Assembly: GCA_026713865.1 (NCBI GenBank)
Contig: JAPONQ010000019.1
Span: 62,001 to 126,000, forward strand
Length of the DNA stretch: 64,000 bases
Direction of reading: 5' to 3'
From: Chloroflexota bacterium
GTDB taxonomy: Bacteria; Chloroflexota; Dehalococcoidia; UBA2979
Shown here: positions 49,387-56,027 of the stretch, one piece after another
Numbering within the stretch: position 1 is the stretch's first letter
How the letters are laid out: the number at the start of each line of letters is the position of its first letter
The notes under the pieces: generated by a model
Seen by the model: only the letters and a program-made list of their open reading frames with translations
Told to the model about the DNA's origin: nothing
Databases searched by the model: none
Translations under genes and position numbers: made by a program

Positions 49387-49489
49387 GGTCCACCGTCAGC
49401 CGCTTCGCGTAGCCGATGGTGCCAGGCAGCGCGCCGCGCATCACCCACCGTCGACGGGCAGCCTGGCAACTTGAGGCCCAGTCTAGACG

Positions 49490-49869
49490 CTATGGAGCGA
49501 CTCACTCCAAGACCGACCGGCGCGACGCGCAGAACCTGGCAGAGCTGCTGCGGGCGGCGCTTCTCACCGAGGTCCATGCTCCGACCCCCGAGCAGGAGGC
49601 GGTGCGCGACCTCTCCCGGGCGCGCGAGGACGCGGTCGCGGACCGCAAGCGGGCGCAGCACCGGCTCGCGAAGCGGCTGCGCCGTGGGCTCAGCGACGGC
49701 ACGGGAACTGGACCCTGGAGCATCCCGCCTGGCTGCGCAGGTCAGCTTCGACCACCCGGCGGCGCAGGCGACCTTCGACGGCTACCTGCGCGCACTCGAG
49801 GCGGCGGAGGAGCGGGCTCGCCTGCGCGGAGGGAGACGACTACCGCGAGGCGGTGGGACTCCTGCGCTA
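49490..49869 (+). pseudogene. IS110-family transposase remnant
   Basis: [24 protein letters not shown] and [21 protein letters not shown] match the internal part of IS110-type transposases. Both ends are missing. The continuation ([30 protein letters not shown] in spirit) can be followed only by changing frame twice. It fills most of the 480-bp gap between the ABC exporter and the lipoprotein and is a decayed relic. No terminal repeats are evident. Confidence 0.75.
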
Positions 49870-51570
49870 TTCCGCTGGTGGGCGGGTGTCCGTGGTTGCA
49901 GGCGCCCTGTAGGCGCGGACGCCCTCGCCGTGGGTTACGTAGACCACTCCGTCGACCACCCGGTAGAGCCCGTATTCGGGCGCGAGATAGTAGCCGATTC
50001 TCTGGGTCCAGAGAGATTCTCCGGTCTGGAGGTCCAGGGTGTGCAGGTCGCCCGTCACGGTGTTGGCGTATACGACGCCATCGGCCACCGTGACATAGAA
50101 CACTCGCCAGTCATTGTTCAGGCTCCATTTCCTCTGCCCGGTTGCGGCCTCGATCCCGTAGAAACCTAGTGCGCCTTCGGCCAGGACCATTCCGTCCGCG
50201 ACGCCGGCTATCCGATTGATGTGGTCCTCGTCAAAGAACCAGCGGGGTCTTCCTGTTCTCGCGTCCAGGGCGATCACGGTTCCATCGCCTGCCAGCGGCC
50301 ATATCCCGTCAACGATGTGCGGCGGGTAGTCTCCGACGTATTCCCACTCGGTCTCCCACAGGAGTCTTCCTGTTGATTCATCCAGCGCGTGGATGCCCTC
50401 GTACGACCGGACGAACACGGTTCCGCCGGACTGCGTTGGGGCCACCGGGATGATGGAGCCGACATCGTAGGTCCAGACCCGGGTTCCGGTCGCTGCGTCC
50501 ACGGCGTGTACCGCGGTTCCGGGGGGGAGATCTCCTTCCAGCCGGACGGTGCGTCCGGCTTCGGGGCGCGGCGGGTCGGTGTGCTGCGGTCCTCGCCCTT
50601 CGTTGGTTCCCAGCACCTCTCCGGTGGTCGCATCGAGGGTGTAGTAGACGCGTATGCTTCTCAGGTAGACCCTTGAGTCCCTGATAACGGGCGGCGGGTC
50701 GAGCTGGGCGTCCAGCTCGGTGTGCCACCGGACGTGTCCGGTCCTCGCGTCCAGGGCATAGACCTGTCCCGAGCCGGAGGCAGCGTAGACCGTTCCTTGT
50801 GTTACGGCCGAGGCCAGCATGAGGAAGTCGCCAGAGTCCCTTGGCTGCTCGCCGGTGCTGAATTCCCACAGAAGGGCATGCTCCGGCGGTGGCGGCCCAG
50901 GAGGCTCCGGTGAGTCTGCCGACGGCCCGTGATTCTCAAGGCAAGCGATCTCTCCTGTCAGAAGCTTCGATGCCAGGAATACTTGCTCATCGGTGGCGAT
51001 TTCGTGGAAGCCCCATGCGGCTTTGGCGATGTCTATCTCTTCAAGAAGATTCCTCACGCATGCGAGTACTGCTTCCGAGTCCTGCGCGGCTGCTTCGTAG
51101 AAGGCCATGAAGACGTCGTTGGCGGTCTCCCGTTTCAGACAATCGAATATCGCGGCTGGCTGCCAGTGCTCCGGGTGGTCATAGAGCCCGCCTTCCGGGG
51201 TCCGCAGGAATATCTCCAGGTCTTCCTCGCCGAGCTGGTCCTGTATGCACTCCTGTTCAGGGCCGCTCAAGGCGTTGTACGTTTCCTGCAGCCGCGGAGC
51301 CGTGTCCGGCTCTGATGGCCCTGATTCCGGCGGCCTCGCTTCCCCCGGGGTTGGTGCGGGCGTAGCAGTCCCCTCTGGCTCCGGCGTGGCCGGTGTCGCC
51401 GGCCTCTCCGGCGCGGACGTCTCTTCCTCTTCTGCCGTGCCGGTGGGCGCAGGCTCCTGTGGGGCAGTCGCTACCGGAGACGCCGTCGGCGTGGCGGCCG
51501 GGTCCGGTGGTACCTTGGTCTCGCCGTTGCTACAGGCGCTCAGGGTCAGGGCGATGACCAGCGTCCCCAC
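49867..51570 (-). CDS. Lipoprotein with PQQ/BamB-type beta-propeller
   Basis: The 567-residue product has a short hydrophobic start ending LTLSAC (lipobox), a Thr/Pro/Glu-rich linker to about residue 90, a Cys-containing helical segment ([23 protein letters not shown]), then repeated propeller blades with the pattern [15 protein letters not shown] ([73 protein letters not shown]). It is likely an outer-surface scaffold or sensor, not an enzyme. The start codon is uncertain, because the charged n-region of the signal (RIKTHRLPARW) lies upstream of 51570 without a standard start. Codon use appears less GC-rich than the core. Confidence 0.8.
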
Positions 51571-52060: not shown

Positions 52061-52243
52061 CTGGCACATCACCGAGCCAGTGGGCGCTGGTCGATCTGAA
52101 GGCTTGGTAGGGGTGGAGGAGCGGCAGATGCTCCATAGCGCTGACTGCCACCCAACTCAGGGGGGTCATCAAAGCCTTCCGTGACGAGGTATGCTCGCTC
52201 TGGAGCATCCAGCGCAGAGCGAGCCTGTCCCGGGGCGGGGTTC

Positions 52244-54283
52244 ATGACACTCACGACAGAAGGCACTGCAGCGCGGACCCTGACCCTGCCCGATGAACTC
52301 CTGCTAATGCTCCTCAGCGAGGAAAGCGGATACTTCCACCAGGTGCCTGGTTGGAGCCTGAATTGCGCGGTCGTGGGGGCAGCGCTTGCGGAACTGTCCC
52401 TTATCTCCCGCATTGACACCGACATGGACTCGCTGATCGTCCTGGACGATACCCCGACAGGGGATCCGGTCCTGGACGACGTTCTTCGGGAAATCGCGGA
52501 CGAACCGGGCCAGCAGAGTGCCCAGTACTGGATCGAGCGCCTCGCGCCCCGAGCAGAGACGATCGTTGACTTCACCCTCGACCGCCTGGTCGCGTCGAAC
52601 ATCCTCCAGCATCACGATGGGGACTTCTGGACGCTGTCCCGGACTACCTGGCAGATGCCGACGACAAACGGCTCGACCGGGGACAGAGCTGAGTTCGTCA
52701 CGACGCGCATCAGCAACGTGATCTTCAACAACAGGATCCCCGATCCGAGGGATGCCATCATCATCGCGCTCGCGAACACGTGCGATGTTCTGCGCTTCAT
52801 CTTCCCTATCGAGGAAGAACTCGAGGAGCGCATCGAGCTGCTCTGCAAGCTTGAACTGATCGGCCGGGCGATCGCCGACGCGGTCGCCAACAACCTAGCC
52901 GGCCCGCTGCTCCGGCGTCCCACGCTGACCAAGAAGATCCCGACGGTTCCGATGCGCAAGCTGCTGTTCAACCGACGCCTCTGGCGGGGAAACCTGCCCG
53001 CGCTCTTCGCCGATCTCGCGGAAGAGTACGGCCCGGTCTTCAGGTTCAACCCACCGCTCCAGGATTCCATGCTCTTCCTCGCCGGGCCCGAGACCAATCG
53101 CTGGGCGCACCGGCACGGACGCATGTACCTGAGGGCAAAGGACTATCTTCAGGAGTTTGAGAAGGTGTACGGTGCGTCAGGGATTCTCCCGGCCCTTGAT
53201 GGCGCCGACCACTTCCGCTTCCGCAAGTACCTGGCGCCGGCCTACTCGCGCGCGCGGCTGGAAGGGCAGCTGGATACCGTCTTCGATTACGCCCGCGCTC
53301 ACATGGCGACCTGGTCGGTCGGGGATGCCATGCCCGCAAGCCCCATGTCCCGGGAATTGATCAACGCCCAGCTTTCGCAGCTCATGCTCAGCGTGCAGTC
53401 GCAGGATCTCATCGCCGATTTGAGCACCTACAAGGAACGAGCGCTCACCACGCGAGTCGTGAAGGTTCTGCCCAAGTTCTTGCTGAAGACGCCGTCCATG
53501 AGGCGGAAGGCGAAGGGCATCGAGACACTGCTGGATCGGGTCCAGGGCGTCCATACAGCCGCCCAACGGGCTGGCTGTCCTCGGGATATCGCCGACGACC
53601 TGCTCAGCCTGCACGCCAGCGATCCGCAGTTCCTCCCCGAGTCGAATCTGCGTTTCGCGCTCTCGGCGCCGCTGATTGCGAGCGTGTACCTCGGCGACGG
53701 GCTCAGCTTCGCGCTCTATGCCATGGCGACACAGCCGGAACTCTATGAGCGGATCCGCGCTGAAGCGGATGCCCTGTTCTCCGGTGGTGATCCCTCCCCT
53801 GAGGACTTCACCATGGAGGCCATCGATGTCACCCATCGCTTCATCATGGAGGCGATGCGCGTCTACCCGATCGTCCCGGTGTCGATGCGAACCGTGATGA
53901 ACACCTGCGTCGTGGAGGGTTACGAGCTCCCCGAGGGATCGGAGATCTATATCGCCCAGACGGCTTCACACTACATGAGCGATGTCTTTCCCGATCCCGA
54001 GACCTTCGATATCGACCGCTACCTGCCTCCGCGTGACGAGCATCGCAGTCCCGGCTATGCCCCGTACGGGCTGGGCACGCACACCTGCCTCGGCTCGCGG
54101 TGGATGGAGCTGCAACTCGGCGTCAACCTGCTGATGCTGGCGCACTACTTCACGATCAAGGTGTCGCCGGAAAACCGGCCGCTTCGGATTAGTCCGTTCC
54201 CCTCGCTGTCCATCAGCAAGAAGGTAAAGTTCGTGATCGCTGAGAAGAGGCGCGAGATCCCCACTGCACCGGCTGGGGACTGA
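52244..54283 (+). CDS. Fusion of a GPP34 (GOLPH3-like) domain and a cytochrome P450
   Basis: Residues about 10-225 form a GPP34 domain: LTLPDELLLMLLSEESGYF, CAVVGAALAELSLISRI, DPVLDDVLREIAD, IVDFTLDRLVASNILQ and IPDPRDAIIIALANTCDVL. In eukaryotes this fold binds phosphoinositide-rich membranes. Residues about 250-665 form a P450 with ExxR in FIMEAMRVYP and the haem loop YGLGTHTCLG. The I-helix reads LIASVYLGDGLSFALY, so the usual acid-alcohol pair is missing. ATG 52244 is chosen because homology starts there. A sterol-methyltransferase-like gene follows after 42 bp. I infer a membrane-recruited oxidase acting on a lipid or isoprenoid. Substrate is unknown. Confidence 0.88.
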   Translation: MTLTTEGTAARTLTLPDELLLMLLSEESGYFHQVPGWSLNCAVVGAALAELSLISRIDTDMDSLIVLDDTPTGDPVLDDVLREIADEPGQQSAQYWIERLAPRAETIVDFTLDRLVASNILQHHDGDFWTLSRTTWQMPTTNGSTGDRAEFVTTRISNVIFNNRIPDPRDAIIIALANTCDVLRFIFPIEEELEERIELLCKLELIGRAIADAVANNLAGPLLRRPTLTKKIPTVPMRKLLFNRRLWRGNLPALFADLAEEYGPVFRFNPPLQDSMLFLAGPETNRWAHRHGRMYLRAKDYLQEFEKVYGASGILPALDGADHFRFRKYLAPAYSRARLEGQLDTVFDYARAHMATWSVGDAMPASPMSRELINAQLSQLMLSVQSQDLIADLSTYKERALTTRVVKVLPKFLLKTPSMRRKAKGIETLLDRVQGVHTAAQRAGCPRDIADDLLSLHASDPQFLPESNLRFALSAPLIASVYLGDGLSFALYAMATQPELYERIRAEADALFSGGDPSPEDFTMEAIDVTHRFIMEAMRVYPIVPVSMRTVMNTCVVEGYELPEGSEIYIAQTASHYMSDVFPDPETFDIDRYLPPRDEHRSPGYAPYGLGTHTCLGSRWMELQLGVNLLMLAHYFTIKVSPENRPLRISPFPSLSISKKVKFVIAEKRREIPTAPAGD

Positions 54284-54325
54284 CGCATCTCGGACTAGGG
54301 TCGGCCCGAGAAGGGGATGCGCCAC

Positions 54326-55360
54326 ATGCAGTTGGGCAGACTCTCACGGGAGTTGCGCGATGCCTTTGGGGATTCGGACGTCAGGCGCCGCGTGCAGACC
54401 TTCGACAGCTGGATTGATCGAGCGTCGCCGCGAGCCGCTAGCGCAGGCGGTTACGACCACGCGGAGACGGTGATGGACTACTACGACCTGTGCAGCGCGC
54501 TCATGGTGTGGGGCTGGAGCGAGTCCCTGCACTTCGCGCCCCTCCGCCCAAACGAGAGCCTCGAGGAGTCCCAGGTCCGCCATCAGCGGTTGATGTTCTC
54601 CCGGCTGGAGTTGCAGCGAGGCATGGCGGTGGTCGATGTCGGTTGTGGGATCGGCGGCCCCATGCGTCGCTGCGCTGGCGAGGCCGGCGTCCACGTCGTC
54701 GGCATCAACAACAGTGTGATCCAGTTGGAGAAGGCGAGACGGTTGACTGCCGAGGCCGGGCTCGACCACATGATCGACTACGAAGTTTGCGACTTCATGG
54801 ACATGACCAACATCGCGGACGACACGTTCGATCGCGGGTACGCCATCGAGTCCACGTGCCATGCGCCGGACAAGCAACGTGCGTTCGAGGAGATATTCCG
54901 CGTGTTGAAGCCCGGAGCCCTGTTCTGGGGGCAGGAAATGTGCCTCACGGACGCGTTCGATCCGAACGACCACAGGCATCAGGCCATCAAGCGGGACTTG
55001 ATGCGCGGTATTGCGCTGAACGACATCGCCACCTTCGGAGAAGTGGACCGAGCGCTCGAAGCCGCAGGATTCTCGGTGATCGAAGGGGCGGACCGGGATA
55101 TCCAGCAAGGCCCGTCCACGCCGTGGTATCAGCCCATGGACGGGCGCCACGGGACGTTGGGGAAGGCCCTTCGCAGGCTCCCGCTGGGCCGCAAAGCGTT
55201 CTTCGCGGGAATGAAGGCTGCCCAAGCGCTGCGACTGTTCCCGAAGGGCTCCGCGGAAGTCGTCCGACTCCTCGATCGCACCGCCGACGCCTACGTCGCC
55301 GGGGGCCGGGCGGGCGTCTTTACGCCGCTGTACTGCTTTCTCGCCCGCAAGCCCCTGTAG
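54326..55360 (+). CDS. Sterol C-24 methyltransferase homologue
   Basis: The 344-residue SAM-dependent enzyme matches sterol methyltransferases end to end. It has VWGWSESLHFAP and ESQVRHQRLM, the SAM loop VVDVGCGIGGPMRR, VVGINNSVIQLEKARRLTAEAGL (in pieces), YAIESTCHAPDKQRAF, FWGQEMCLTDAFDPND, PWYQPMDG and a C-terminal domain ending GGRAGVFTPLYCFLARKP, the signature of the sterol-MT C-terminal domain. In eukaryotes the enzyme alkylates the sterol side chain. Bacterial homologues have been reported from uncultured lineages. No squalene cyclase or epoxidase is visible here, so the substrate could be a sterol, hopanoid or other isoprenoid. AAGGGG favours ATG 54326 over 54317. Confidence 0.88.
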   Translation: MQLGRLSRELRDAFGDSDVRRRVQTFDSWIDRASPRAASAGGYDHAETVMDYYDLCSALMVWGWSESLHFAPLRPNESLEESQVRHQRLMFSRLELQRGMAVVDVGCGIGGPMRRCAGEAGVHVVGINNSVIQLEKARRLTAEAGLDHMIDYEVCDFMDMTNIADDTFDRGYAIESTCHAPDKQRAFEEIFRVLKPGALFWGQEMCLTDAFDPNDHRHQAIKRDLMRGIALNDIATFGEVDRALEAAGFSVIEGADRDIQQGPSTPWYQPMDGRHGTLGKALRRLPLGRKAFFAGMKAAQALRLFPKGSAEVVRLLDRTADAYVAGGRAGVFTPLYCFLARKPL

Positions 55361-55951: not shown

Positions 55952-56027
55952 TGGTGCCCCCAGGGGGACTCGAACCCCCGTTTCCACCTTGAGAGGGTGG
56001 CGTCCTGGGCCGCTAGACGATGGGGGC
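55952..56027 (-). tRNA. tRNA-Glu (anticodon CTC)
   Basis: A full cloverleaf on the minus strand: acceptor GCCCCCA pairs with TGGGGGC, followed by discriminator A and an encoded CCA. The D arm contains TCTAGCGG, the anticodon stem CCACC/GGTGG closes the loop CTCTCAA with anticodon CTC, and the T arm is GGGGG-TTCGAGT-CCCCC. Its 3' end abuts the accessory region to its left, the usual arrangement for an integration target. Confidence 0.96.

Follow-up and report, generated by a model that had tools for sequence, protein, structure and literature searches.

The two genes described here, which code for a P450 fused to a GPP34 domain and for a sterol methyltransferase (SMT) homologue, are on balance best read as a reduced copy of a sterol-tailoring cassette that is shared horizontally among sponge-associated bacteria. 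The full set consists of the GPP34-P450, a subfamily-A SMT, a KshA-like Rieske oxygenase, an LkcE-like FAD oxidase and an MMPL/HpnN-like transporter. The pair lies in a 64-kb stretch of DNA from a Chloroflexota bacterium, hereafter called the window, with the following features.

49479..49682, + strand: IS110-family transposase remnant, upstream of the cassette (PF01548 1.1e-10, profile positions 84-151 of 155)
52244..54283, + strand: GPP34-P450 fusion, 679 aa (Pfam GPP34 4.3e-33, p450 1.4e-38; start from orthologues)
52286..52888, + strand: GPP34 (GOLPH3-like) domain, aa 15-215 (PF05719 4.3e-33)
52961..54214, + strand: P450 domain, aa 240-657 (PF00067 1.4e-38)
53678..53698, + strand: I-helix segment A479-S-V-Y-L-G-D485, in place of [AG]Gx[DE][TS]
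54065..54094, + strand: haem-ligand loop YGLGTHTCLG, whose Cys615 is invariant in 51/51 sequences
54326..55360, + strand: sterol-methyltransferase homologue, subfamily A (PF08498 2.5e-15; tree; orthologues 56-84% identical)
54500..54541, + strand: SMT Region I variant LMVWGWSESLHFAP, Tyr-Glu replaced by Met-Val
55952..56027, - strand: tRNA-Glu(ctc) flanking the cassette (ARAGORN)

A probably reduced copy of a five-gene set

The reading frame around the fusion extends over 52181-54283 (+), the starts of its orthologues point to the ATG at 52244, and both Pfam domains lie within this single frame. As the same two-domain layout is found in 50 orthologues (61-84% identity), some of them on chromosome-level records, the fusion proposed in the preliminary description is genuine and not an assembly accident. 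The methyltransferase reading frame (54317-55360, +) codes for 347 aa, or for 344 aa from the ATG at 54326, which is preferred on the basis of the orthologues and of a GAGAAGGGG box 9 nt upstream. The gap between the two genes is 42 bp with this start and 33 bp with the in-frame ATG at 54317. Upstream of the cassette, a minus-strand gene (window positions 49867-51570) codes for a PQQ-type beta-propeller lipoprotein-like protein.

A scan of named genomes yielded 190 relatives of the fusion, and we read the neighbourhoods of the best 80 of these 190 loci (61-84% identical) within 10 kb of the fusion gene. Among these 80, a Rieske gene is found in 64, an FAD gene in 52, an SMT gene in 42 and an MMPL gene in 38, and six loci have none of them, which makes the Rieske gene a more constant neighbour of the P450 than the SMT gene. 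The pair was initially taken for a two-gene cassette; with Rieske and FAD genes as the commonest neighbours of the P450, it is rather the remainder of a five-gene set. Unlike the full set, the genome of the window (G000; assembly 93% complete) yielded no orthologue of the Rieske or FAD genes, and no remnants of Rieske, FAD or MMPL genes were found inside the 64-kb window. An MMPL orthologue is present on another contig of this genome (G000:C52). The copy is thus probably a reduced one, in which the P450, the SMT, the transporter and squalene genes are kept. At locus L182 (genome G137), on a short contig, a fusion of 53% identity has an MMPL neighbour, and SMT, Rieske and FAD genes were not found in that genome. 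In the open-licence papers searched, we found no description of a GPP34-P450 fusion or of a P450-Rieske-SMT cassette in sponges, in agreement with the earlier statement that no described system with this pairing was known.

The Rieske oxygenase has Rieske and KshA_C domains, and its closest solved relative, aligned over a partial chain, is the 3-ketosteroid 9alpha-hydroxylase KshA. The FAD protein is of the amine-oxidase type, with LkcE as its nearest relative. As for the MMPL protein, it matches a sterol-sensing domain, and the HpnN and BstA models match it below cut-off. Its orthologue is present in all seven carriers among 60 relatives of the window genome and in none of the other 53. With its KshA-like Rieske enzyme, FAD oxidase, MMPL transporter and oxidative P450, the set might also serve sterol catabolism or detoxification; the enzymes would then make host sterols accessible to degradation, which is what KshA does in actinobacteria. 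We consider this quite improbable, as no known catabolic route involves a C-methyltransferase and no other ring-degradation genes were seen among the conserved neighbours.

The P450 active site and the methyltransferase family

The GPP34 domain aligns with human GOLPH3 (3kn1) at an E-value of 1.2e-5 in a single-sequence comparison, with the TGD..LD motif aligned. The domain is common to GOLPH3/Vps74 and the window protein, but only in the latter is it fused to a P450. In one weak GOLPH3 alignment, the GOLPH3 arginines reported to bind PI4P are aligned with no arginines of the GPP34 domain. Presumably, the domain docks the fusion protein to the membrane. The same genome also harbours a stand-alone GPP34 paralogue (G000:C9:28560-29156, L194), which shares about 40% identity with the fused domain and has a lepA-like GTPase gene and ABC-transporter genes nearby. 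No relative of the fusion was found in the viral contigs searched.

The predicted structure of the fusion (pLDDT 81.9) matches CYP170A1, CYP46A1 and CYP51 at Z 32-33; these fold matches lie within about one Z unit of each other and hence do not single out a substrate. The fusion shares with these enzymes the P450 fold, the haem cysteine and the ExxR pair (E536/R539, invariant in the 51 fusion sequences), but it has an additional N-terminal GPP34 domain and it lacks the acid-alcohol pair of the I helix. This pair is missing from all 51 sequences, whose consensus is A-S-x-Y-[LVMG]-G-D: A479, Y482, G484 and D485 are invariant, and the two catalytic positions are occupied by Y482 and, mostly, L483. 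Among P450s devoid of the acid-alcohol pair there are peroxygenases and isomerases as well as some true hydroxylases. The active site is evidently unusual, but, given this catalytic diversity, no particular reaction is implied.

The methyltransferase matches PF08241/PF13847 and Sterol_MT_C (PF08498, 2.5e-15) above cut-offs. In the tree, subfamily A lies beside subfamilies B, D and E and apart from 12 of the 13 outgroup rows, with weak to moderate support for the split (89/54); a poor row, L017, falls inside the SMT side, and no eukaryotic SMT was included. This tentatively places the enzyme beside the SMTs; a grouping with small-molecule enzymes outside them, which according to the preliminary description would have refuted its reading, was not observed. 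The canonical Region I motif of sterol C-24 methyltransferases, Y-E-[YF]-G-W-G-x-S-F-H-F, is matched by none of the 22 subfamily A sequences: Tyr is replaced by Met in all 22 and Glu by V, L, I or Q in 21, and Leu is found in place of Phe. The Glu residue is kept in the 15 sequences of subfamilies B, D and E. As Region I is altered in every member of subfamily A, its substrate is perhaps other than a delta-24 sterol. The methyltransferase would thus belong to a divergent SMT subfamily, and of the initial designation as a sterol C-24 methyltransferase homologue, the family is supported by domain and tree, while methylation at C-24 is only putative given the altered motif.

Bacterial SMTs from sponge symbionts that are related to the window protein alkylate sterols in vitro (PMC10070321). 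They belong to the same family, have the Sterol_MT_C domain and come from a similar host community. Unlike the SMTs linked to the sterol-synthesis clusters called CSGs (subfamily B, 41-42% identical to the window methyltransferase), the window protein forms a separate subfamily with Met-Val in Region I, tied to the GPP34-P450 and not to CSGs. We also found a further divergent subfamily, E (L056, L057, L179), which in L056 adjoins another Rieske-type gene.

The best solved-structure matches of the methyltransferase are the natural-product methyltransferases MitM, RebM and AtmM. Together with the resemblance of the FAD enzyme to LkcE of lankacidin biosynthesis, they might suggest that a non-triterpenoid small molecule is tailored by enzymes with no more than a resemblance to those acting on sterols. 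However, the PDB matches are weak guides, since they comprise only other methyltransferases and no eukaryotic SMT, and both PF08498 and the tree place the enzyme with the SMTs. Nor did the conserved neighbours include any recognisable PKS or NRPS gene, which makes such a product very improbable.

Co-inheritance and spread across phyla

We surveyed 393 genomes of the class, of which 38 have the fusion and 39 a member of the SMT family. Both are present in 37 genomes, the P450 only in one, the SMT only in two and neither in 353 (Fisher 2e-48, a value to be read with the fact that related genomes are not independent of one another). The same ten of 226 genera, spread over several families, carry both. 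In eight of the 39 SMT-bearing genomes, every SMT belongs to a subfamily other than that of the window; the window's subfamily is found in 31 genomes, 30 of which also have the fusion. The partner genes are distributed likewise, with P450 and Rieske genes both present in 34 genomes (P450 only 4, Rieske only 1, neither 354), P450 and FAD genes in 30 (P450 only 8, FAD only 2, neither 353), and all four of P450, SMT, Rieske and FAD in 29.

Among the 60 relatives, six genomes besides that of the window have a close SMT orthologue (63-77%), and all six also have the fusion (61-72%). The two genes are adjacent in G001, of the same genus as the window genome, and in G030, and apart in G006, G020, G040 and G054. 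Over a broader range of 57 carriers, an SMT-family match at 1e-40 is lacking in 12. The P450 and SMT genes lie within 1.5 kb of each other in 40 of the best 80 loci, so the pairing recurs and is not broken up in all relatives. The functional link proposed for the two genes is thus supported by their near-perfect co-occurrence in the class as well as by this adjacency, and chance adjacency is ruled out by the co-occurrence. As for the proposal that they form an operon, they are on the same strand in the window and in 18 of the 40 adjacent loci, but on opposite strands in the other 22.

The best 80 of the 190 relatives belong to at least eight phyla: Chloroflexota, Actinomycetota, Gemmatimonadota, Pseudomonadota, Nitrospirota, Binatota, Myxococcota and Latescibacterota. 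In the tree of the fusion, the nearest relatives of the window protein are titled Chloroflexi or Dehalococcoidia, and phylum-level clusters occur along with several rows nested across phyla; one Nitrospirales row, for instance, lies within Chloroflexota. Such nesting suggests horizontal transfer, with mis-binning possible for single rows; L086 and L090 are single odd placements that might be mis-binned or misnamed. Binning error as the source of the spread as a whole is ruled out by four loci of three phyla on chromosome-level records (Binatia L076, Dehalococcoidia L094, Acidimicrobiales L116 and L119).

The window itself bears signs of acquisition. Its GC content is mostly about 0.72-0.77 and drops to 0.63-0.65 over 50-56 kb; a similar second dip is found at 60-64 kb, and GC by itself is a weak sign. 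Taken with the IS110 remnant, the dip makes an accessory region plausible, and with the neighbouring tRNA-Glu gene as well, acquisition of the cassette is likely. The earlier suggestion that it was acquired is therefore strengthened, both by the locus and by the cross-phylum nesting. The bacteria among which it is probably shared appear to be associated with sponges. Most carriers are MAGs whose names match sponge projects: the series IRC, RHO, COS and APA fit the sponges Ircinia, Rhopaloeides, Coscinoderma and Aplysina (PMC8163846), and the jk18x bins are Ircinia MAGs (PMC9531527). As this match covers those five series and leaves out SB06xx, Plut, 277c, p16 and CO36386, a sponge-specific habitat is what we infer for the carriers.

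Candidate substrates and the possible remodelling of sponge sterols

In some loci of Nitrospirota and Dehalococcoidia, a sterol-synthesis cluster lies next to the set. In L079, L095, L111 and L136 it lies within about 12 kb of SdmA, SdmB and ERG24 genes, and in L095 and L111 a squalene-epoxidase/OSC fusion is found in the same stretch. Such cluster genes, which we annotated in L058 with SdmA, SdmB, OSC and ERG24 models, correspond to the CSGs of Ircinia symbionts (PMC9531527) and the msb cluster of Melophlus (PMC7074536). Like the cassette, those clusters occur in sponge symbionts of many phyla, have spread horizontally and combine sterol genes with an SMT and a P450, and in some genomes they are joined to it. 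In contrast, CSGs make sterols, with a squalene-epoxidase/OSC fusion, CYP51, ERG24 and SdmA/B, none of which belongs to the present set. The window has no OSC or ERG24 match and by that test is not a CSG. The GPP34-P450 is not the published CSG CYP51 either, as the two are only about 25% identical and the I helix of the cluster's own CYP51 keeps an AGQHTS motif. Sterol-synthesis clusters (SdmB, SdmA, ERG24, squalene-epoxidase/OSC fusion) were also seen in L058, L167, L168, L169 and L170, with a CYP51-type P450 in L058 and L170; in L167-L170 the OSC has a canonical SMT beside it.

Most carriers lack an oxidosqualene cyclase: a cyclase of the OSC type is found in 16 of 57 (15 of 50, plus G054 of the seven relatives). 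PF13249 has no match in the window's genome, where squalene-hopene and oxidosqualene cyclases were looked for, or in five other carriers. A hopanoid substrate, which had been considered initially, is therefore unlikely and was dropped, and most carriers, if they act on sterols, would take them up from elsewhere.

Six of the seven carriers have squalene genes and no squalene or oxidosqualene cyclase. In the genome of the window, hpnCDE lies at G000:C68:13812-16875 (L039:7717-10894). HpnC, HpnD and HpnE score at or near curated cut-offs, tandem squalene/phytoene-synthase (SQS_PSY) pairs are present in all seven carriers, and HpnE is found in seven of seven carriers versus four of 53 other relatives (Fisher 8.5e-7). 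This association, with the missing cyclase, provides the strongest case for a linear substrate, namely that HpnCDE would make squalene, which the SMT would methylate and the P450 oxidise with no cyclisation. The altered Region I would fit such a pathway, and the TMTs of Botryococcus, which are relatives of SMTs, methylate squalene. However, hpnCDE does not adjoin the cassette in any of the seven genomes, squalene may serve the membrane by itself, the Rieske and transporter partners are of steroid type and the cassette lies beside sterol-synthesis clusters in several genomes. Squalene-type lipids thus come next as candidates, and we consider them rather unlikely.

We lean towards sterols as the most likely substrate, given the Sterol_MT_C, KshA_C and sterol-sensing domains of the partners and the adjoining sterol-synthesis clusters. 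The sterol or isoprenoid pathway envisaged in the preliminary description stands as far as this link goes, and its reactions are putative. Sterols supplied by the sponge or by symbionts that make them would enter or move through the envelope by way of the MMPL protein. The P450, docked to the membrane by its GPP34 domain, would then perform an unusual oxidation or rearrangement, and the SMT would methylate the sterol at a double bond, which most probably lies in the side chain. In genomes that have them, the Rieske and FAD enzymes might carry out additional oxidations or dehydrogenations. For Melophlus, it has been proposed that a sterol made by one symbiont may be tailored by others (PMC7074536).

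It is tempting, if tentative, to imagine a sharing of sterol labour in sponge microbiomes, in which some members build the core and unrelated phyla carry a mobile tailoring cassette, with its atypical P450 and new SMT subfamily, leading to products untraced to any enzyme. The P450 chemistry would then be peroxygenase-, isomerase- or lyase-like and would act on host or community sterols. Sponges contain unusual sterols, some of which are taken as the oldest chemical record of animals, and whether they originate from the host or from bacteria is disputed. The cassette supplies named genes with which this dispute can be put to the test. Being mostly separate from sterol synthesis and recurrent in symbionts of many phyla, it offers a test of bacterial remodelling of host sterols, and both the GPP34-P450 devoid of the acid-alcohol pair and the SMT with an altered Region I are candidates for chemistry not yet described.
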